This document shows, in pieces, positions 17,460 through 55,859 of a stretch of DNA of 64,000 nucleotides (positions are counted from its first letter, which is position 1; the number at the start of each line of letters is the position of its first letter). The stretch lies in contig LM994626.1 in NCBI GenBank assembly GCA_000752675.2, positions 13,004 through 77,003 on the forward strand. The letters run 5' to 3'. The translations under genes were made by a program, and so were the position numbers. This DNA comes from a bacterium OL-1 (GTDB lineage: Bacteria > Actinomycetota > Coriobacteriia > Coriobacteriales > Atopobiaceae). Below the pieces are notes generated by a model that made no database searches, was not told the DNA's origin, and saw only the letters and a list, made by a program, of their open reading frames with translations.

Positions 17460-17488
17460 TGAGAAAAAGGGAAACTCCCCTTGTCTCA
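17460..17488. repeat. Degenerate copy of the TGAGACAAAGGGA palindrome family
   Basis: TGAGAAAAAGGGA, AACT, CCCCTTGTCTCA. This is a weaker copy of the palindromes at 48317, 51350 and 53707. Unlike those, it begins 21 nt after the stop codon of the lipid-kinase gene rather than on it. Confidence 0.6.
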
Positions 17489-47213: not shown

Positions 47214-48323
47214 ATGCACTGGCCCACTATCCTCACTACGGCCCATCTCGTCATGCGTCCCTGGCGCGAGGACGACGCCCCCGCGCTCTACCGCTACGCA
47301 AGCGATCCCGAGGTTGGACCGCGCGCGGGCTGGGCTCCGCATCAATCGCAGGACGAGAGCCGTCAGGTCCTGCATGACATCCTCATGGTGCCTGACTCCT
47401 GGGCCATCACGCTTCGAGGCCGAGAGGGTGTGCTGGCAGACGAGCCGGTTGGCGCGATTGCCCTCCAGCACGACCTCACGGGCCTACCCGCAGACGAGGC
47501 CGAGATAGGCTACTGGATCGCGCGTCCCTGGTGGGGCCACGGTTACATGACCGAGGCCGTGCGAGAAGTGCTTCGCCACGCGTTTCTCGTCGAGAACCTT
47601 GTCGCCGTACGTGCAAGCTACTTCGAAGGCAACGAGGGCAGCCGCCGCGTGCAGGAAAAAGTGGGGCTTCGCCCGCACCACCACGTCGATAGCGCCGTTG
47701 ACCGCTGCGGGATCACGCACACCGAGCACGTCCAGCGCATCACGCGCAAGGAGTGGGAGGTCTCGCTTGCAGCAGACCCAACGGACGCAGGGACCATTGC
47801 GCGCCAGCAGTCCGAGGCCGCGGGCATCATCGACCGCCTGCCGCTCATCTCGCTCGTGCGCTCCGGCGGCCAGACCGGCGCGGACCGTGGCGGCCTTGAT
47901 GCGGCACGCGAGCAGAACGTGCCCATCTGCGGCTGGTGCCCACCCGGTGGCCTAGCGGAGGACCTGCCCAACCCGCCAGGTCTTCTCGCCCTGTATCCCG
48001 AGCTTCGCGAGGGTCCCAGCCAGGGCTACGTCGAGCGCACAGCTTGGAACGTGCGCGATAGCCACGCAACGCTCATCGTCTCGCCAGGCGGGTTGGAGCC
48101 ACGAAGCGGCACAGAGATGACTGCCATCTTCGCCGAGCGCATGGGTAGGCCGGTGCTGGTTCTTGAAGGTGTCAACGTGAGCGAGGATGCCGCGGAGGCG
48201 CTTGCTTGGCTCCGCTCGCTTGGCACATGTGCCATGACACTCAACGTTGCGGGTCCGCGCGAGTCAAAGATGCCCGGCGTCTACCAGCTCACGCACGACA
48301 TCGTGGCAAACGTCCTGGGATGA
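47214..48323 (+). CDS. GNAT acetyltransferase fused to a MoCo-carrier-like domain
   Basis: 369 residues from ATG 47214 (GGAGGAA upstream). Residues 1-180 are a RimJ/RimL-type GNAT: LVMRPWREDDAPALYRYASD, IGYWIARPWWGHGYMTEAVR, VENLVAVRASYFEGNEGSRR. Residues about 205-369 are a Rossmann-like domain of the putative molybdenum-carrier family: VRSGGQTGADRGGLDAAREQ, CGWCPPGGLAEDLP, NVRDSHATLIVSPGG. Each half is complete and no stop or frameshift separates them. Its TGA lies in a palindrome shared with the convergent gene. Confidence 0.85.
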   Translation: MHWPTILTTAHLVMRPWREDDAPALYRYASDPEVGPRAGWAPHQSQDESRQVLHDILMVPDSWAITLRGREGVLADEPVGAIALQHDLTGLPADEAEIGYWIARPWWGHGYMTEAVREVLRHAFLVENLVAVRASYFEGNEGSRRVQEKVGLRPHHHVDSAVDRCGITHTEHVQRITRKEWEVSLAADPTDAGTIARQQSEAAGIIDRLPLISLVRSGGQTGADRGGLDAAREQNVPICGWCPPGGLAEDLPNPPGLLALYPELREGPSQGYVERTAWNVRDSHATLIVSPGGLEPRSGTEMTAIFAERMGRPVLVLEGVNVSEDAAEALAWLRSLGTCAMTLNVAGPRESKMPGVYQLTHDIVANVLG

Positions 48324-48353
48324 GACAAAGGGACTGTCCCTTTGTCTCATCCC
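48317..48353. repeat. 37-bp perfect palindrome at convergent gene ends
   Basis: Arms GGGATGAGACAAAGGGAC and its reverse complement flank one T. The stop codons of both convergent genes (TGA at 48321-48323 on plus; TGA at 48349-48347 on minus) are inside the arms, and the last Gly codon of each protein is too. As RNA it forms a long hairpin ending in a TTTGTCTC run in either direction, so it may terminate both genes. Confidence 0.9.
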
Positions 48354-49933
48354 AACGCGCGCGAGAAGAGAGCGCGTTGGTCGGCGTCCCACAGCGACAT
48401 GTCGTCCGAGGTAAAGAGCACGCCGCCTAGCGTAGAGTCTGCCTCGAGGAGCTCTGCGCGCTGTTCGTCGGTTAGACGAACGTCTGGCCGCAGGAAGAAG
48501 ACGTCCGGGTCGCACCTAAACGCCCTGCCGTCGAGATGCGCGCGCCCTCGCGTGTTGGCCAGGCTGTTCTTGGTGCTCACGCGCTCGCGGCCGGTGCCGC
48601 GCATGTAGGCGGCACCGTCCCAGTCGAGGCCCACGTCGCAACCAATACGGCAGAACTCCGTGCGGCCCAAGGCAGAGCCAATGGGAACGCCGCACAGGTC
48701 AAACCACGTGCCAGACGCCGCACTCTGGCGCAGGAGGCCGATGGCGTCGGCCATGAGCTGGCCTCGGTTCATGCCGCCATGCGGGAGCATGCACGCCGCA
48801 TAGAGGAAGTCGCACTTGAGAAGCGTGAATCCCCACTCGCCGGTGAGCGTTGCCATGACGCGTGCCACGTAGTCACGCACCTCAGGATTCAGCGTATCGA
48901 GCGCAACGTGGCCGGACCAGTGCGAGCCGGTCACCACAAGCTCGCCCTTCTCATCACGAAGCAGCCAGTCCGGATGCGCCGAGAAGAGCTGGGACTCGCG
49001 CTCGCACACGAAGGGCGCAACCCAGATGCCCGGCATGAGCCCGCGCTCACGAGCAGCAGCGGCCACGGCGGCAAGGCCATGCGGGAACTTCTCGGCATCC
49101 GGGTGGAGCCAGTCACCCACACGCGTGTAGCCGTCATCCATCTGGAAGGTTGGGCGGCGCGTACCCAGGTCGTAGTCCTCAAGGCAGTTCGCAAGCGCAT
49201 CCAAGTCGTGCAGCAGGCACTGCTCCGATATGTTCGTGTAGTGCCGGTACCAGCTGGTATAACCCACAAGCGGCGAGCAGGGCGGAACAGCGATGCCACA
49301 GAGCGCAAGCCAGCGCGCAGCTGCCTCATCAACGTTCTCTGCGCGAACCACGGCAAGTCCCAAAAGGCAGCACTTCTCGCCAGCCTTTACGGGAACGGCT
49401 GGCGGCTCCTTGCTCACAAGGAGCGCCTCTGCAGGCAGGTCTTCGCGAATGAGCGTCATTCCCGTGTCCTCGCCAAGCGAGCCCACCAGGGCAACCTCAC
49501 CATCCCGCCGCAGGTAGCCATAGGTAAAGCCATGCTGGTGACCGGGTCTCTCGTCCGCCTTCACAAAGCGGTAGTCGCCTGAGGCGTCAAGCACCCAATG
49601 GCGTATGGCCACGCGCGGCACGCGGAAGTTGCGCATGCGGTCGCGCGGACTGCGCTCCACGGAGTCTGTCCAGGAGTTATAGCCGTTCAGGTAGAGCGCC
49701 GTTGCCTCACCCAGCGCTGCGGGAAGCGTTGTCTCCACAGCGTCGATCACAACCTCACGCCGGGGCTTCACGCACAGCTGCCAGCACTCGCCCTCGCGCA
49801 CGAGCGAGACACCAAGCGTGACCACGTCCGCACCCGTCACCAGGCCAGACGGCTGTACATGGGCAACGCGCCCCTGGTCAGACGCCACATGCCAGCGCAC
49901 ACAGAAGGCAGGTTCGCCGAGAAGCGCCGTCAC
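48347..49933 (-). CDS. GH36-type alpha-galactosidase
   Basis: 528 residues from GTG 49933, which overlaps the symporter stop as GTGA. The (beta/alpha)8 domain is clear: VGYTSWYRHYTNISEQCLLH, TFQMDDGYTRVGDWL, GIWVAPFVCERESQL, then LLKCDFLYAACMLPHGG with the nucleophile Asp and RIGCDVGLDWDG with the acid/base Asp. It is shorter than the usual 700-residue GH36 enzyme because the N-terminal beta domain is reduced. It hydrolyses alpha-galactosides; no signal peptide is seen, so it acts in the cytoplasm on sugar brought in by the adjacent symporter. Confidence 0.88.
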   Translation of the reverse strand: MTALLGEPAFCVRWHVASDQGRVAHVQPSGLVTGADVVTLGVSLVREGECWQLCVKPRREVVIDAVETTLPAALGEATALYLNGYNSWTDSVERSPRDRMRNFRVPRVAIRHWVLDASGDYRFVKADERPGHQHGFTYGYLRRDGEVALVGSLGEDTGMTLIREDLPAEALLVSKEPPAVPVKAGEKCCLLGLAVVRAENVDEAAARWLALCGIAVPPCSPLVGYTSWYRHYTNISEQCLLHDLDALANCLEDYDLGTRRPTFQMDDGYTRVGDWLHPDAEKFPHGLAAVAAAARERGLMPGIWVAPFVCERESQLFSAHPDWLLRDEKGELVVTGSHWSGHVALDTLNPEVRDYVARVMATLTGEWGFTLLKCDFLYAACMLPHGGMNRGQLMADAIGLLRQSAASGTWFDLCGVPIGSALGRTEFCRIGCDVGLDWDGAAYMRGTGRERVSTKNSLANTRGRAHLDGRAFRCDPDVFFLRPDVRLTDEQRAELLEADSTLGGVLFTSDDMSLWDADQRALFSRALG

Positions 49934-51330
49934 GCCCTGTCGCCCCCCTTGGCCTCGCCAGAGGCGCCGCCGATGGTCCCAAGGACGCGCCGCTCGTTGT
50001 AGCGCGTGAAGACAAGGCCGCCTATGAGGCAGAACGCCGTGGCAACAATCGCGGTGGCCCGGTAGCCCATGCCGTTCTCGCCAAGGATGGAAATGGAGGT
50101 GAAGAGGATCATCGCGAGCGTCTGACCCAAGGTCATCGAGAAGGTGCGAGCCGCGTAGAACATGCCCTCGCGCCTCTCGCCCGTCTCCAAGGCGTCGCAC
50201 TCCGCGATGTCGGCAAGCACCGCCTGGGGAAGGATACCCAGGATGGCCATGGGCACGGCCGCAAGCACTGCCACAAGCATGCCCCAGACCATACCCGGGA
50301 TGCCAAACATGCCGCACACCGAGGTGACGGCAAACGCCGCGCAGAAGAAGAAAAAGCCAAACGCAACAATACGCTTCTTGCCGTGGCGTTTGGCCAGCAT
50401 GTTCACGGGCGCGTAGAACAACAGCGAGATGAGCGTCATGGCGGCGAAGAACACAAACGAAAGCGAATCCGGCAGGCCCATGAGCTCGGTGATGTAGTAG
50501 GTCATGCCGGTCTGGAACATGGTGATGGCAACCCAATAGAGCACGTCGGAGAGCTCGAAGACCTGGAAGTCATGGTTCTTGAACGTCTTGGCAACAGACT
50601 GGAACATGGGCGTGGAGGAGGGCTCTGCCTTGGCATAGAGGGTCTCGTCGATGCCAAACGCGGGCACAAGCATGCAGGCAACGGCAACGGCGGCAAGCAC
50701 GGCGACCGTGATCCTGAAGGCACCGGCGATCCCCATGGCAGGCTCGAGGTAGGCAGCCACCGTGGTAACGAGGTACGCAAGCGCCGTGCCTAGAAAGTAG
50801 GTGACCGAGATGTGCGTGGAGAGATCGATTCTCAGCTCCTGCGTACGCCCAAGCTCGGGGATGAGCGCATTGAAGGGCGTGCAGTAGAGCGAGAGCGTGA
50901 TGTAGAAGAGCATGAGGCAGCAGAAGAGCAGCACGTTATTCAGGGTCTCGCTGCCCGTACCCGGCAGCACAAAGACGAGGACCGTCATCACGCCAAAGGG
51001 GATGGCGGCACCGCGCATGAACGGGATTCGGCGGCCAAGAGGGCTGTTCAGCCGATCAGACTGGGAGGCAATGAACGGGTCGACGAAGCCGTCGAGGAGC
51101 CTGCCACATCCCGTGATGATACCGATGACCGTGAGCCCCGCAAACACGGCGCCCTGGGTGATGAAGACCGCCATGCCACGCGAGAGCATGGTGTCGGAGG
51201 GCATGTAGAAGTAGACGAGCCAGTTGCTGACGATGCCCGAGAGTATCGCCCAACCCAGCTGCCCTATCGCAAAGAGTCTGATGACTCGCTTGTCCGCAAG
51301 CCTGGTCCCCGAAGCCTTCTCCCCTGCCAT
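49930..51330 (-). CDS. GPH-family sugar:cation symporter (MelB-like)
   Basis: 466 residues from ATG 51330 (GGGGAG upstream). Twelve hydrophobic segments; GPH hallmarks include GRLLDGFVDPFIASQSDRLN near helix 2 and GRRIPFMRGAAIPFG after helix 2. It should import a glycoside such as an alpha-galactoside with a cation. Overlap with the GH36 gene gives a compact uptake-hydrolysis pair. A TetR gene lies upstream in the same direction. Confidence 0.9.
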   Translation of the reverse strand: MAGEKASGTRLADKRVIRLFAIGQLGWAILSGIVSNWLVYFYMPSDTMLSRGMAVFITQGAVFAGLTVIGIITGCGRLLDGFVDPFIASQSDRLNSPLGRRIPFMRGAAIPFGVMTVLVFVLPGTGSETLNNVLLFCCLMLFYITLSLYCTPFNALIPELGRTQELRIDLSTHISVTYFLGTALAYLVTTVAAYLEPAMGIAGAFRITVAVLAAVAVACMLVPAFGIDETLYAKAEPSSTPMFQSVAKTFKNHDFQVFELSDVLYWVAITMFQTGMTYYITELMGLPDSLSFVFFAAMTLISLLFYAPVNMLAKRHGKKRIVAFGFFFFCAAFAVTSVCGMFGIPGMVWGMLVAVLAAVPMAILGILPQAVLADIAECDALETGERREGMFYAARTFSMTLGQTLAMILFTSISILGENGMGYRATAIVATAFCLIGGLVFTRYNERRVLGTIGGASGEAKGGDRA

Positions 51331-51349: not shown

Positions 51350-51378
51350 TGAGACAAAGGGAAACTCCCTTTGTCTCA
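51350..51378. repeat. TGAGACAAAGGGA palindrome between tetR and symporter
   Basis: TGAGACAAAGGGA, AAC, TCCCTTTGTCTCA: 13-bp perfect arms. The TetR stop codon (TGA read leftward at 51378-51376) is the first three bases of the right arm. It lies in the 45-nt gap ahead of the symporter and may limit read-through from tetR. Confidence 0.9.
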
Positions 51379-52050
51379 TCTCAATGCGCGTACTGCCATG
51401 TCAACGATGCACTCAAGCTCCTGGGCCCCCGTGGAGAAGTCGTCCGAGGGGATGACCTCTCCGCGCGCGAGCTTCTGCGCCACACCCATGAGCGCATGCG
51501 CGACGCTTCTGTAGAAGACCGGAAAGTCCACCTCGCGCGCGACGGAGCCATCCTGGAGCCCCAGCTGGTATGCGTCAGCAAAGATGAGGTAGAACGAGTC
51601 GACCTCGCGCCCGTAGGCGGCAACCGCGTCAAGCGGCACCCCCTCGGTAACGAGAAGCCCATCGAGGTCATCAATGAAGAGCACAAAGCCGGCGTTCTCC
51701 ACGTAGCCTTCGGCATAGAGACGCAACATGCGCTCGAGCCTGTCCGCACCGCTCATGCCGAGAAACGCGTCCGACTCGACAAGCCCCACAATGCGCTCGT
51801 TGAAGCGCCGCCACAGGAGCGTGCCTGCCGTGAGGGCAAGGCGCGTCTTGGTCGAGAAGCGTCGGTAGAGCGTGGCCACTCCAACGTCCGCCGCATCCGC
51901 AACGTCGGTCATGCGCACGTCCGCGATGCGTCGCTTAAGGAAGAGGCCGGCTGCGCACTCGATGGCGCGGTCCATGCGCGCATCGCCCGTGAGGCTCCTC
52001 TCCTGTGGCGCAGCAGACACTAAGCCCGCCGTGACGTCATCCTGTGCCAT
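51376..52050 (-). CDS. TetR-family transcriptional regulator
   Basis: 224 residues. The N-terminal HTH (ADVRMTDVADAADVGVATLY then RRFSTKTRLALTAG) is typical of TetR. The C-terminal ligand domain is helical. It is divergent from the 52142-53701 gene, with two palindromes in the shared 91-nt gap, so it probably represses that gene and itself. Whether it also controls the downstream symporter and galactosidase is open. Confidence 0.9.
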   Translation of the reverse strand: MAQDDVTAGLVSAAPQERSLTGDARMDRAIECAAGLFLKRRIADVRMTDVADAADVGVATLYRRFSTKTRLALTAGTLLWRRFNERIVGLVESDAFLGMSGADRLERMLRLYAEGYVENAGFVLFIDDLDGLLVTEGVPLDAVAAYGREVDSFYLIFADAYQLGLQDGSVAREVDFPVFYRSVAHALMGVAQKLARGEVIPSDDFSTGAQELECIVDMAVRALR

Positions 52051-52073: not shown

Positions 52074-52110
52074 TGATAGTCTTACTATCAACTTGATAGC
52101 GAGGCTATCA
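52074..52110. promoter_or_regulatory. Twin TetR operators
   Basis: TGATAG-TCTTA-CTATCA (52074-52090) and TGATAG-CGAGG-CTATCA (52094-52110). Both have identical arms around unrelated 5-bp spacers, and their centres lie 20 bp apart, so they face the same side of the helix. Located between the divergent tetR and 52142 genes. Confidence 0.85.
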
Positions 52111-52141
52111 CCTCTGTCCACATAGGGTCAAGGAGGATTCG

Positions 52142-53701
52142 ATGGAAGCGTCGACAGACCGGGCGAGAAGCGTCTTTGGCAACGAGCAGGACGACGCAAC
52201 GTACCAGAAGGCCGTCCAATCGAAGGAGCGCTACCTCCGTCGCTTTGGCGATGACTCCAAGACCATCTATCACCTCTCGGCAGCTCCCACGCCCGTGATT
52301 GGCGATATGCTCGGCGTGAGGAACCTCGTAATCTCCCCTGACAGCACGCCCCTCGACATCCGTGCAGATGCCGCCCAGGCCCCCAAGCCACCCGCCACCA
52401 ATCGTGCCGTAGAAGGCGCAAACGGCACGCCGGTCATAGTGGGAAACATCCGCATGGGGTTTGGGCACTACCGCATCTCGATGGCCATGGCATCGGCAGC
52501 GCATGCCATGGGCTACACGCCCTACTGGCTTGACCTTGCCTCCTTCGAGGATGCTACGGGATCCAAGGTCATCCGCTACCAGAACGACCTCTACTCCAAG
52601 GGGTCGAGAATCTCTCAGCGTGTTGGGGCCTTCAATAAGCTCGTGTGGGAACCGCTCAACTCCGAGGGCTTCCGCAAGCTCTCGTACAACGCGGCAGACC
52701 AAAAGAACGCCGAGCTCTGCGTGCCCTTCTTCCACGACATCGACAAGGACATCCCCTACGTGGGCACCCACGTCTGGCCCTCGCAGGCAGCTGTTCATGC
52801 GGGCATGACCCACGTGGTGAACGCCATCCCCGACAACTGGCCCATGGCGCTCCACCTTGCGGAGGGCTCCATCCACACGGTCCAGACGCCCAGCGCCTAC
52901 CTGGGGTACCACCAGCTACGCGGCATGGACCCTGCGCGCCAGCTCAAGCCCATGCCCGAGGGGTCCATCTACTACACCGGCCACTACGTTGACCACGAGC
53001 TTGTCTCCAACATCCCCACAGACTGCGCACGACGCAGGAACCGTGTCATGGGAGGCGGCCCCGTGCGCTACCTGCTCTCCGTTGGCGGCGCAGGCGCGCA
53101 GCAGGAGCTCTTCGCGGCAATCGTGGAGCACCTCCTCCCCTATGTGAGGCGCGGGGAGGCCGTGGTCTTTGTTAACGTTGGCGATCACAAGAAGGTGTGG
53201 GATGCGCTGCTCAAAAGCGTGGACGGCCTTCGCAGCGAGGCACTCCCCCACTTCGAGGGTATCGACGAGGTCGCGCGGTTTGCAACGGCGGCACTCGACG
53301 GTGACGCGAGCGGCGTGCACGCCTTCTGCGACAAGGACATCTTTACGGCGGTCTACTCGTCCAACCTGCTCATGCGCTGCTCGGACGTGCTGGTTACCAA
53401 GCCGAGCGAGTTCTCGTTCTACCCCGTGCCCAAGCTCATGATCCACCGGGTGGGCGGCCACGAGGCCTGGGGCGCCATCCGCGCAGCGGAGGTTGGCGAC
53501 GGCACCTACGAAATGGACGACACCGCAGAGGTACTCTCGATGATCGACTCGTTCCAGCACGAGCGCGGGCTTCTCGGCTTCATGTGCGACCGCATCGAGG
53601 ACGCCGCCAAGGCGGGCATCTACGACGGGGCCTATCGCGTCATCGACCTTGCGGTGAACGGTGCGCCAACGCTTCCGGGGCCTTTCGACGGAGCACGCTA
53701 G
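52142..53701 (+). CDS. GT-B-like protein of unknown function (519 aa)
   Basis: AAGGAGG precedes the ATG. Residues about 95-125 read GTPVIVGNIRMGFGHYRISM, recalling the GHGHxR loop of MGDG-synthase/MurG-type glycosyltransferases. The C-terminal half has YLLSVGGAGAQQELFAAIVE and VLVTKPSEFSFYPVPKLMIH, which match the second Rossmann domain and donor-sugar loop of GT-B folds. No membrane segment is seen. It could glycosylate a lipid or other acceptor, but the family is not one I can name with certainty. Regulated by the adjacent TetR through twin operators. Confidence 0.75.
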   Translation: MEASTDRARSVFGNEQDDATYQKAVQSKERYLRRFGDDSKTIYHLSAAPTPVIGDMLGVRNLVISPDSTPLDIRADAAQAPKPPATNRAVEGANGTPVIVGNIRMGFGHYRISMAMASAAHAMGYTPYWLDLASFEDATGSKVIRYQNDLYSKGSRISQRVGAFNKLVWEPLNSEGFRKLSYNAADQKNAELCVPFFHDIDKDIPYVGTHVWPSQAAVHAGMTHVVNAIPDNWPMALHLAEGSIHTVQTPSAYLGYHQLRGMDPARQLKPMPEGSIYYTGHYVDHELVSNIPTDCARRRNRVMGGGPVRYLLSVGGAGAQQELFAAIVEHLLPYVRRGEAVVFVNVGDHKKVWDALLKSVDGLRSEALPHFEGIDEVARFATAALDGDASGVHAFCDKDIFTAVYSSNLLMRCSDVLVTKPSEFSFYPVPKLMIHRVGGHEAWGAIRAAEVGDGTYEMDDTAEVLSMIDSFQHERGLLGFMCDRIEDAAKAGIYDGAYRVIDLAVNGAPTLPGPFDGAR

Positions 53702-53706
53702 CGCCT

Positions 53707-53743
53707 GCGATGAGACAAAGGGAAGCCCCCTTTGTCTCATCGC
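53707..53743. repeat. TGAGACAAAGGG palindrome at convergent gene ends
   Basis: GCGATGAGACAAAGGG, AAGCC, CCCTTTGTCTCATCGC: 16-bp perfect arms. The right arm holds the TGA of the AarF gene (53739-53737 on minus), and the preceding gene ends 6 nt before the left arm. Confidence 0.9.
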
Positions 53744-55500
53744 CTGCGGCGCCGGTCGTCCTTGATGATGCTCCGGGCAACCCATATGCCCAGGATGAAG
53801 GCAGCAAGGTAGCCCACAAAGCCAATGATGGGAATGCCAAAGATAACGGGCTGGATGCGCGCATAGTAGACCACCGACGAGCCAATGAAGAGGCCCGCCA
53901 CCATGACGCTCATCGAGAGCCTGTTGGCGATGTGGGCGAAGTCGTTGATGGGGTCCTCGGTTCCCGCCACGTCCAGGTTAAGCCGCAGCTGGCCGCGGGT
54001 GAGCATCTTCATGGCAAGGTCCGCCTGCGAAGCCGCGCCGAGAAGCCCGTGCGCAGCACGCGTTCCTTCGCGCGTGAACCCCTTGACCTCGTGCTTGATG
54101 AGGTCCTCGGGCGTGGTGTGCGCCTTGATGTGGGCCGTGATGATCTCGATGATCGAGACACCGGGGAGAAACTCGTCAACCACGCCCTCGAGCGTCACGA
54201 GGGAGCGCGCAAGCATGGTGACCGAGCCGGGGAGCTCGACGCCGTTCTTCCTCGCCATCGAGATGAGCGAGTTCACGAAGGAGCCAACGTCAAGGTCTGA
54301 GAGGTCAGCCTCGCCGTAGTCGGCAATGATCATGTCGAGGTCGTCCAAGAGATGCGCATGGTCGACGGCGGACGTATCGGATATCGAGAAGCGCAGGAGC
54401 CCGTCGGCAAGCCCGGCGGAGTCCCTCAGCGCAACGGCCTTCACCATGTCCGACATGGCCTTGCGATCATGCGAGGAGAGACGCCCCATGATTCCCAAGT
54501 CGATGTAGACGATCTGCCCGCCGCGGACGATGAGGTTACCGGGGTGGGGGTCGGCATGGAAGAAGCCGTCGTCGATCATCTGGCGCGTGTAGTTGTCGAC
54601 GAGCTTGGTGCCAATCTCTTCGAGGTCATAGTCAGCAGCAACCAGCTTGGCCGTCTTGTCGATGGGAATACCCTCGATGTAGTCCATGACCACGACGTGC
54701 TTGGTGCAGAGCTTGGGATAGGGCTTGGGACAGTCGACAAACTTGCAGTCCGCGTTGTTGCGCCTAAACTCCTCCAGGTTTCTGGCCTCCACCAGGAAGT
54801 CCGTCTCGTCGCGGAAGGACTGCCAAAGCTCGTCCACCACCGACTGCATGTCGAGGAACTGGCTCCCCGACATGAAGCGGTCCATGAACCCCACAAGCGA
54901 GCGCATGATGGCAATGTCTTGTGTCATGGTCTCCTGGACGTGTGGGCGCTGCACCTTGATGGCAACCATCTCGCCCGTGACGAGACGGGCCTTGTGCACC
55001 TGGGCCACGGAGGCGGAGCCCAAAGGAACATCGTCGATGGCGTCGAAGATGTCTTCGATGGGGGTGTCGTACTCGTCACGCAGCGCCTGTAGCACCGTGT
55101 CGCGGTCCATGGGCTCGACATCCGAGCGGAGCTTGGTGAGCTCGCGGCAGAAGCTCTCGGGCAGTATCTCCGAGCGCATGGAGAGTATCTGGCCAGCCTT
55201 CACGAAAGTGGGGCCAAGCTCCTCGAGCATGTGGCGCAGGCTCTTGGGCGTGAGGCCGTGGAAGATGTCATAGCGGCGAACGATAGAGAGAATCTCGCGG
55301 ACGCGCTTGAGCCGTGAGCTGCGCGACGACTCGTACCCGTCAGACGTCTTGCTGCGACCGCCAAACAGGCCGATGGTCTGCGCGTCGTCATCCTCGAAGC
55401 CGTCCTCGCTCACGCTCCTGTACCACGCGTCAAGGAGCTCGTCACTTGTTCGTGGCGAGCTCCCCTTCGTGGCATCACTTGTGTCGCGAACCTCTGGCAC
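53737..55500 (-). CDS. AarF/UbiB-type (ABC1) atypical kinase
   Basis: 587 residues. The family motifs are in order: FVKAGQILSMRSEILPESFC (KxGQ), LGSASVAQVHKARLVTGEMV with VAIKVQRP (ATP-binding Lys), VVMDYIEGIPIDKT, FFHADPHPGNLIVRGG (catalytic loop) and VYIDLGIMGRLSS (metal Asp). Two membrane helices end the protein (MSVMVAGLFIGSSVVYYARI; GIPIIGFVGYLAAFILGIWV). UbiB-type proteins support isoprenoid-quinone or lipid metabolism. A phasin-like gene precedes it in the operon. Confidence 0.9.
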   Translation of the reverse strand: MPEVRDTSDATKGSSPRTSDELLDAWYRSVSEDGFEDDDAQTIGLFGGRSKTSDGYESSRSSRLKRVREILSIVRRYDIFHGLTPKSLRHMLEELGPTFVKAGQILSMRSEILPESFCRELTKLRSDVEPMDRDTVLQALRDEYDTPIEDIFDAIDDVPLGSASVAQVHKARLVTGEMVAIKVQRPHVQETMTQDIAIMRSLVGFMDRFMSGSQFLDMQSVVDELWQSFRDETDFLVEARNLEEFRRNNADCKFVDCPKPYPKLCTKHVVVMDYIEGIPIDKTAKLVAADYDLEEIGTKLVDNYTRQMIDDGFFHADPHPGNLIVRGGQIVYIDLGIMGRLSSHDRKAMSDMVKAVALRDSAGLADGLLRFSISDTSAVDHAHLLDDLDMIIADYGEADLSDLDVGSFVNSLISMARKNGVELPGSVTMLARSLVTLEGVVDEFLPGVSIIEIITAHIKAHTTPEDLIKHEVKGFTREGTRAAHGLLGAASQADLAMKMLTRGQLRLNLDVAGTEDPINDFAHIANRLSMSVMVAGLFIGSSVVYYARIQPVIFGIPIIGFVGYLAAFILGIWVARSIIKDDRRRRR

Positions 55501-55505
55501 AGGTT

Positions 55506-55859
55506 CTACTCCTTGGCGTCACCATCATCAACGGGGGCGTCCTCGACGGAATCCGGCTCGACGACGTCTGCGTCGATGTCGGATGCCATGGAGGCAACCT
55601 TCTTGGCAAAGTCCGCACGCTCCTCGGGGGTCATTGCCTCCATCTTGGCGCGCAGAGCGGCGTCGGACGTGTCGCCAACGACCTCCTTCGCCTTGCGGGT
55701 AAGCTCCTCGTTGATGGCCTTGCCCTGGGCAACGGTAAGCTCGCCCTTCTTGACGAAGCCGTCGATGACCTCCTGGGACTTCTCGGCGGTGGTGGCGACT
55801 GCACCCACGCTTGCCAGGAAGACCTTGCGGAAGCCGTCCGTGATATCGAAGTCTGCCAT
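55506..55859 (-). CDS. Phasin-like / PHA-granule-associated family protein (117 aa)
   Basis: Starts MADFDITDGFRKVFLASVGA and contains ATTAEKSQEVIDGFVKKGEL and TVAQGKAINEELTRKAKE, the helical layout of short phasin-like proteins (PhaI/DUF1712-like proteins found next to AarF kinases). It ends in a Glu/Asp/Val-rich acidic tail. It is 5 nt before the AarF gene, so both are probably cotranscribed. A true PHA role is unlikely in the absence of pha genes. Confidence 0.75.
   Translation of the reverse strand: MADFDITDGFRKVFLASVGAVATTAEKSQEVIDGFVKKGELTVAQGKAINEELTRKAKEVVGDTSDAALRAKMEAMTPEERADFAKKVASMASDIDADVVEPDSVEDAPVDDGDAKE

Follow-up and report, generated by a model that had tools for sequence, protein, structure and literature searches.

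The melibiose operon combines MelB, a symporter of the GPH type, with an alpha-galactosidase. The monogalactosyldiacylglycerol (MGDG) synthases MGD1/UgtP and the enzyme MurG are members of CAZy family GT28, whose enzymes bind the nucleotide ribose and phosphates with a G-G/P-x-T-x-x-E helix in the C-domain, written GGxTxxE below, and in MurG-type enzymes a glycine loop holds the diphosphate. Gram-positive carbohydrate utilisation loci (gpPULs) bring together a degrading enzyme, a transporter and a regulator, as set out in the sections of PMC5320581 cited here. We describe a locus of comparable make-up in a 64,000-nucleotide stretch of contig LM994626.1 from the Atopobiaceae bacterium OL-1 (hereafter the window), where a gene for a 519-aa protein of the Pfam families DUF6937 and DUF6938 lies divergent from a tetR gene, with two copies of a perfect inverted repeat between them. 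In our best explanation, to which we assign a probability of roughly 0.4 as a whole, this is a TetR-controlled alpha-galactoside module in which the DUF6937-DUF6938 protein would be a catabolic enzyme. The sites, families, fold, linkage and residue conservation reported below were computed, and the features of the locus are as follows.

48347-49933, minus strand: GH36-type alpha-galactosidase (Melibiase, PF02065, 52 bits, cut-off 27)
49930-51330, minus strand: GPH/MFS_2 sugar:cation symporter (MFS_2, 127.3 bits, cut-off 27)
51376-52050, minus strand: TetR-family regulator of the type here called TetR_a, 224 aa, presumed repressor of both divergent units (TetR_N, 29 bits, cut-off 24)
52074-52090, strand not applicable: operator 1, TGATAGTCTTACTATCA, an exact TGATAG-N5-CTATCA, proximal to tetR
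52094-52110, strand not applicable: operator 2, TGATAGCGAGGCTATCA, an exact TGATAG-N5-CTATCA, proximal to the DUF6937-DUF6938 gene
52142-53701, plus strand: DUF6937-DUF6938 protein, 519 aa, predicted to be a GT-B enzyme similar to MGDG synthase and MurG (Pfam; AlphaFold 2 model)

Judged from its gene content, the locus is very probably a small module for alpha-galactoside utilisation. Relatives were gathered by a peptide-pattern scan with the 519-aa protein alone, giving 94 confirmed matches, of which 80 loci were kept. Partner genes were counted by tblastn (one to three reference proteins per family, E 1e-10), because in some of the loci, such as L076 at its GH2 gene, the greedy caller of open reading frames (ORFs) had called frames on the antisense strand. 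With the proviso that distant members can be missed in this way, GH36 was found in the fetched flanks of 70 of the 80 loci, GPH in 76 and both in 68; among the 49 loci flanked on both sides by 4.5 kb or more, the counts are 47, 48 and 46, respectively. Nine of the 12 loci in which at least one partner was not found have limited flanking sequence on one side or both, and the full-flank exceptions are L076 and L083 (GH2 and symporter, GH36 not found) and L096 (GH36, symporter not found). GalK was counted in 20, GalT in 16 and GH2 in 16 of the 80 loci, and the Pfam or NCBIfam identity of each partner was checked on one or two representatives. As the neighbours are a GPH symporter and a GH36 enzyme in 68 of 80 loci and in 46 of 49 with full flanks, we read the locus as serving uptake and breakdown of alpha-galactosides; the lipid or surface-glycan modification suggested in an initial annotation of this DNA is not supported by the same neighbours. 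Nor is the adjacency a by-product of many GH36 copies, since PF02065 has a single match in the whole source genome, namely the neighbour described here.

The alpha-galactosidase assignment is also supported by solved structures, as the Protein Data Bank (PDB) relatives of the GH36 protein are alpha-galactosidases (6lcj, E 1.3e-38; 1zy9, E 1.4e-26). Its aspartates in LKCDF (D374) and RIGCDV (D432) align with 6lcj and are what we take, by GH36 GalA, to be the catalytic pair. The start of the gene was placed by comparison with relatives L028 and L030, a longer ORF to 50536 also being listed, and the N- and C-terminal Pfam domains of GH36 had no match in the protein. For the symporter, the ORF was listed from a TTG at 51357, and the ATG at 51330 appears likelier by eye. 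It scores 111.9 bits against TIGR00792, under the cut-off of 231.35, and has no sequence relative in the PDB at E<=0.001. Both genes, symporter and GH36, follow tetR and share its strand.

The main rival explanation is that the 519-aa protein is a biosynthetic galactosyltransferase, for which imported galactose would be turned into UDP-galactose and attached to a lipid or surface glycan, as by MGDG synthase. We regard this as unlikely, though deserving of serious weight. UDP-galactose can be made in this organism, since matches to GalE and to galactokinase (GalK) both exceed their cut-offs in the source genome, that to galE at 456 bits; the same two matches led us to set aside the candidate role of the DUF protein as a GalE replacement. 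On the other hand, a symporter and an alpha-galactosidase adjoin the DUF gene in both phyla, Actinomycetota and Bacillota, and its distribution is patchy, like that of a catabolic accessory: counting the own or centre genome in each sample, the gene was found in 21 of 60 near genomes, in 4 of 396 genomes drawn from the phylum and in 7 of 95 genomes from a single Bacillota family. Additional neighbours likewise failed to reveal a recurrent lipid or cell-surface family. From the 40 loci L067-L106 without L090 and L091, which leaves 38 (34 in Bacillota and four in Actinomycetota), 137 further ORFs were collected, and 92 of them were picked by hand for scanning. They matched 139 families, of which the 25 most frequent pointed to no further shared partner. 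Voltage_CLC was matched by 6 of the 92 and the other families by one or two, Hydrolase_4 by two. An alpha/beta hydrolase gene (Hydrolase_4) stands directly 3′ of the DUF gene or the symporter gene at L087:7457-8389 and L075:9048-9998, the former scanned directly and the latter assigned by membership in the same sequence cluster.

The initial annotation saw no clear family for the 519-aa protein. This was wrong, as DUF6937 (374.9 bits, residues 11-257) and DUF6938 (335.3 bits, residues 271-505) are both matched far over the cut-off of 27, and both are matched by 60/60 relatives of our alignment as well. They are Pfam families of unknown function, and a known non-transferase family, which the initial annotation had named as grounds for abandoning its assignment, was not among the matches. 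No paper naming DUF6937 or DUF6938 was found in a search of full-text literature. The alignment was built from 97 DUF matches, from which five with internal stops (L037, L046, L071, L021, L086) were left out; thinning the remaining 92 at 88% identity left 60, with the partial L062 dropped and the window protein added, and no member falls below 51% identity to the window protein. The family had no sequence relative among solved structures up to E 10, and the window protein had no NCBIfam or PADLOC match up to E 1.

Structure prediction was more informative. The AlphaFold 2 (AF2) model made from the 60-sequence alignment has a mean predicted local distance difference test score (pLDDT) of 89.9 and a predicted template modelling score of 0.91, and VIA-align, run over the PDB candidates of Foldseek, matched residues 92-510 to a GT-B fold, residues 1-91 being barely covered. 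The top match is the Arabidopsis MGDG synthase MGD1 (4x1t, Z 20.6, root-mean-square deviation 4.1 over 286 residues; 4wyi, Z 20.3), followed by MurG from P. aeruginosa (3s2u, Z 19.6) and other MurG entries at 17.1-17.9; the difference of 0.7-1.0 in Z between MGD1 and 3s2u makes the two about equal. The resemblance to MGDG-synthase/MurG folds guessed in the initial annotation is thereby borne out. That the nearest folds are MGDG synthase and MurG, with the catalytic histidine and glycine loop kept, is also an argument for a biosynthetic galactosyltransferase. Lower rows hold UDP-GlcNAc 2-epimerases and other GT-B enzymes down to Z of about 14. The epimerases (5enz, Z 16.9; 7vza, Z 16.6) are good enough matches to raise the possibility of a GT-B enzyme that isomerises a sugar nucleotide or sugar phosphate for galactose metabolism, comparable to the non-hydrolysing UDP-GlcNAc 2-epimerase, but MGD1 and MurG score higher, the genome already has its galE match and the G-x-G-H histidine of GT28 is kept, so that we find such an enzyme quite improbable.

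Residue conservation places a putative active site on this fold. H109 (in G-F-G-H), the GGAGA of residues 315-319 and the pair H440-E441 are invariant in 60/60 sequences. In a collinear alignment, H109 (RMGFGHYR) coincides with the G-x-G-H histidine of GT28-like proteins, and H440-E441 with their Q-E. In MGD1, the equivalent H155 is described as the catalytic base in the portion of PMC7419546 that deals with it. The nucleotide end differs: in place of the GGxTxxE helix, all 60 sequences carry TKPSE(F/L)xxYP, which is five residues shorter and without insertion in any of them, as far as weak alignment scores allow this to be read. At the position of the shortened motif, the model has a one-turn helix only (423-426), with a pLDDT of 88 at 421-430 that drops to 71 and 64 in the two blocks that follow; across 311-320, where the glycine loop lies, it is 72. 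Taken together, the alignment and model make the catalytic and phosphate-binding machinery look intact and the nucleotide end look remodelled, which is compatible with phosphate taking the place of the nucleotide or with another grip on UDP. The motif for nucleotide ribose being missing in 60/60 counts against a biosynthetic galactosyltransferase. An altered nucleotide site would also suit a non-catalytic accessory that has kept an old GT-B fold, such as a substrate sensor or a chaperone of the alpha-galactosidase, but histidine, glutamate and glycine loops that are invariant across two phyla look like a strongly selected active site, and we hold this explanation to be very improbable.

In the mechanism that we infer for the catabolic module, TetR binding, the inducer, localisation, reaction and substrate are matters of reasoning. 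Under repression, TetR on both operators would shut off its own gene together with those of the symporter, the alpha-galactosidase and the DUF protein, and on induction a galactoside or a derivative of it would free TetR. The GPH symporter would then import the galactoside, and the GH36 enzyme, taken as cytoplasmic, would remove terminal alpha-galactose, which would enter the Leloir pathway. The DUF6937-DUF6938 enzyme would handle the galactoside that remains. As an inverting-type GT-B enzyme with H109 as acid/base, it could take galactose off a beta-galactoside with phosphate, giving galactose 1-phosphate, or with UDP, giving UDP-galactose. MGDG synthase forms a beta-galactosyl bond on diacylglycerol, as stated in the part of PMC7419546 concerned with its reaction, and because this is what the nearest fold does, the reverse reaction on a beta-galactoside is the economical proposal. 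That an MGDG-synthase-like enzyme runs catabolically on the remaining galactoside in this way is possible, if doubtful. A candidate substrate would be digalactosylglycerol, the headgroup (Gal-alpha-Gal-beta-glycerol) of the plant lipid digalactosyldiacylglycerol, which would fit because an alpha-galactosidase and an enzyme that splits beta-galactosides would together consume it. Galactosylglycerols have been proposed as natural substrates of beta-galactosidase (Egel, as cited in the relevant passage of PMC8333865). The full extension of this idea is a new GT-B class from the MGDG-synthase/MurG line, in which inverting, phosphate- or UDP-dependent splitting of beta-galactosides would act with an alpha-galactosidase in the gut on plant-galactolipid headgroups resembling digalactosylglycerol, and a dedicated TetR would sense the galactoside or a lysolipid; we consider it improbable in this complete form.

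Several points weigh against a catabolic enzyme of MGDG-synthase descent. The top rows of Foldseek against the PDB are trehalose-6-phosphate synthases, which are retaining enzymes, at a TM score of about 0.4. Kinship with GT28 finds weak backing in sequence profiles: hhalign gave E 2.5e-4 and 43% probability against three GT28-like proteins, E 0.0063 and 6% against five, and in effect nothing against MurG alone (E 0.31). The alignment itself is shallow (effective number of sequences, Neff, 2.3), and the Pfam GT28 models PF06925 and PF04101 have no match to the window protein at E<=1; elsewhere in the source genome, PF06925 has no match and PF04101 has one, in a gene that we read as MurG. The apparent loss of the ribose helix depends on the model and on weak alignments, and E423 could be a substitute for the ribose glutamate. 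The weakest point of the mechanism is the 16 of 80 loci with GH2. The best NCBIfam matches of GH2, all below cut-off, are beta-galactosidase models, so it may itself be a beta-galactosidase, in which case hydrolysis could do the job and a second enzyme splitting beta-galactosides would be redundant in those loci. The galactolipid substrate, finally, is a guess, as nothing in the sequence names a substrate, and the alpha/beta hydrolase in 2 (L087, L075) of the 34 Bacillota loci is the only lipid-linked hint. Because neither a Pfam GT28 match nor the nucleotide motif was found, we file the protein, from sequence and model, as DUF6937-DUF6938, working in the manner of a GT-B galactosyl enzyme, but leave it outside GT28.

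Turning to regulation, the two TGATAG-N5-CTATCA sites reported in the initial annotation are both exact, with starts 20 bp apart and a gap of 3 bp, and both lie within a 91-bp intergenic region flanked by the divergent tetR and the 519-aa ORF. Shuffling the window 100 times with dinucleotide content preserved gave a mean of 0.00 exact matches and a maximum of 0. The search for further copies that had been recommended was carried out over all contigs of the source genome (2,456,563 bases, 10 contigs, 99.34% complete) and returned two exact sites, both of them here. Allowing up to two mismatches gave 18 places genome-wide versus 19 for a reversed-pattern control, and the weaker copies in this genome are therefore background. 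A wider TetR regulon is accordingly not supported, with the count equal to that of the control and the sole one-mismatch place (position 7251 of contig C2) inside reading frames (611 aa on the minus strand, 389 aa on the plus strand). A promoter scan matched once, at a position that overlaps operator 1, against a background mean of 0.4, and a terminator scan gave one site, inside the DUF6937-DUF6938 gene (background 1.4), with no site at the gene ends. A literature search combining TGATAG, TetR and operator listed nothing related.

The regulator has both the helix-turn-helix domain (TetR_N, as listed above) and the fold of the TetR family, its AF2 model having a pLDDT of 88.4 and Foldseek matches to TetR-family folds. 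Adding three loci from further genomes to the 80 gave 83 loci in which regulator and operator could be compared. A regulator of the TetR_a type was found by tblastn in 43 of them, each with at least one exact TGATAG-N5-CTATCA, while 39 had neither (the absence being weak evidence in five, where upstream sequence is limited to 50 bases in L080, 256 in L103 and about 700 in L107-L109) and one, L040, had operator sites without a recognised tetR on 1.5 kb of contig upstream. Regulator and operator are thus concordant in 82 of 83 loci, and their presumed pairing stands. Spacing is conserved as well: relatives provide 37 operator pairs, with a start-to-start distance of 20 bp in 30, 19 in 6 and 23 in 1, or about two helical turns. 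Six further whole genomes held 8 exact operators versus 2 for the reversed-pattern control, each at a DUF6937-DUF6938 locus when positions were assigned to loci by arithmetic. From these sequence patterns, TetR looks like a dedicated, single-target repressor of the operators.

Many of the 80 loci come from closely related Atopobiaceae genomes, so that, judged by the protein tree, the counts are not independent, which is the argument for regarding the operators and the linkage as coincidental neighbours within one clade. For this reason, recurrence across two phyla, Actinomycetota and Bacillota, is the stronger point than the raw counts. TetR_a and operator also occur in Ruminococcus flavefaciens, a Ruminococcus metagenome-assembled genome, Alkaliphilus and two Erysipelotrichaceae (L067, L071, L087, L098, L105), where TetR is 26-39% identical to that of the window and the six-base half-sites are unchanged, and these five Bacillota loci share the symporter and the alpha-galactosidase. 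Lachnospiraceae-type loci have a different regulator (TetR_b, 16 of 83 loci) and a full-length GH36, and in none of the 16 was an exact TGATAG-N5-CTATCA found; TetR_b occurs with the symporter and/or GH36 in Lachnospiraceae and Eubacterium, a second association that again speaks against coincidence. We consider coincidence extremely improbable. In a 60-row protein tree, 29 TetR_a rows and 13 TetR_b rows need a single label change, and with midpoint rooting four Bacillota TetR_a rows branch off before the Lachnospiraceae-type rows. By eye, several TetR_b upstream regions contain GGAAAC...GTTTCC (L077, L078, L092, L101, L106), with imperfect versions in others.

TetR proteins often sense lipids, and the Foldseek list for the TetR model includes acyl-CoA-bound FadR, which may be counted in favour of a biosynthetic galactosyltransferase. 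Deriving a ligand from the fold was uninformative, since the scores of DarR, FadR, QacR, EthR and other matches lie close together.

Some loci depart from the two-operator arrangement. L050 and L064 have three exact operators between tetR and the DUF gene. In L055, tetR and the DUF gene are separated by a further gene (L055:4471-5970) whose product looks, by eye, like a TIR-domain protein with a single hydrophobic segment; an exact pair of operators stands on each side of it. The same TIR-like gene adjoins the DUF gene at L040:78-1460, where the contig ends before tetR. This gene may be under the TetR switch too.

Beyond the DUF gene, a UbiB/ABC1-type kinase gene (53737-55500, minus strand) is convergent with it in the window, beside a small ORF (55506-55859, minus strand); the kinase is present in 21 of the 83 loci and looks like a neighbour of one clade and not like part of the module. 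A 27-bp inverted repeat, GAGACAAAGGG-N5-CCCTTTGTCTC, sits at the end of the GH36 gene (48322-48348), at the tetR/symporter junction (51351-51377) and at the end of the DUF gene (53712-53738), and again at 17461-17487 with two mismatches. It occurs at 88 places genome-wide with up to two mismatches versus 0 in the control, and could be an element resembling a terminator or a repetitive extragenic palindrome (REP).

Compared with known systems, the module belongs to a known kind of small locus for carbohydrate utilisation and contains an enzyme family that is uncharacterised in the literature searched. The operator differs from those of TetR repressors of known structure (DarR, FadR, QacR), with which the window TetR shares its helix-turn-helix and fold, and the half-sites of classic tetO stand in the opposite order to TGATAG-N5-CTATCA; together, TetR and its operator pair would form a compact, single-target switch. 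With the melibiose operon the locus has its two functions in common, a Lachnospiraceae symporter (L093) reaching 358 bits with the MelB model, whose cut-off is 456, and it differs in having a TetR with TGATAG-N5-CTATCA, or another TetR, and the DUF6937-DUF6938 enzyme. The window-type locus resembles a gpPUL in combining TetR with a symporter of the GPH type and an alpha-galactosidase of GH36, in some cases joined by GalK, GalT or GH2, whereas a GT-B DUF6937-DUF6938 gene is not named among the gpPUL components in the cited sections of PMC5320581, where the gpPUL with a TetR in Table 2 (Ros-8) is an arabinan locus. Like MGD1/UgtP and MurG, the DUF protein has a GT-B fold, the G-x-G-H histidine loop, a glycine-rich loop and a (Q/H)-E pair on the donor side, but it is without a Pfam GT28 match, its counterpart of the GGxTxxE helix is shorter, and it has an extra N-terminus of about 90 residues and a catabolic gene context. 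That context narrows the role of a family spread over two phyla, with an invariant putative active site, to galactoside catabolism. If the mechanism holds, gut bacteria would be running plant galactolipid synthesis backwards, and such a galactolipid-headgroup pathway would help to explain how bacteria of the herbivore and human gut use an abundant leaf nutrient. We know of no precedent on this fold for an inverting phosphorylase of GT-B type, nor for an MGDG-synthase-like enzyme that works in catabolism. Glycoside phosphorylases would share the proposed catabolic reaction, and the GT-B fold occurs among them in GT35. In the family overview of a 2022 review (PMC8950772), glycoside phosphorylases from GT families are retaining in GT4 and GT35, inverting ones are found in six GH families and GT108, and none like MGDG synthase is described; as the GT families there are GT4, GT35 and GT108, an inverting phosphorylase with a GT-B fold like that of MGDG synthase would be new.

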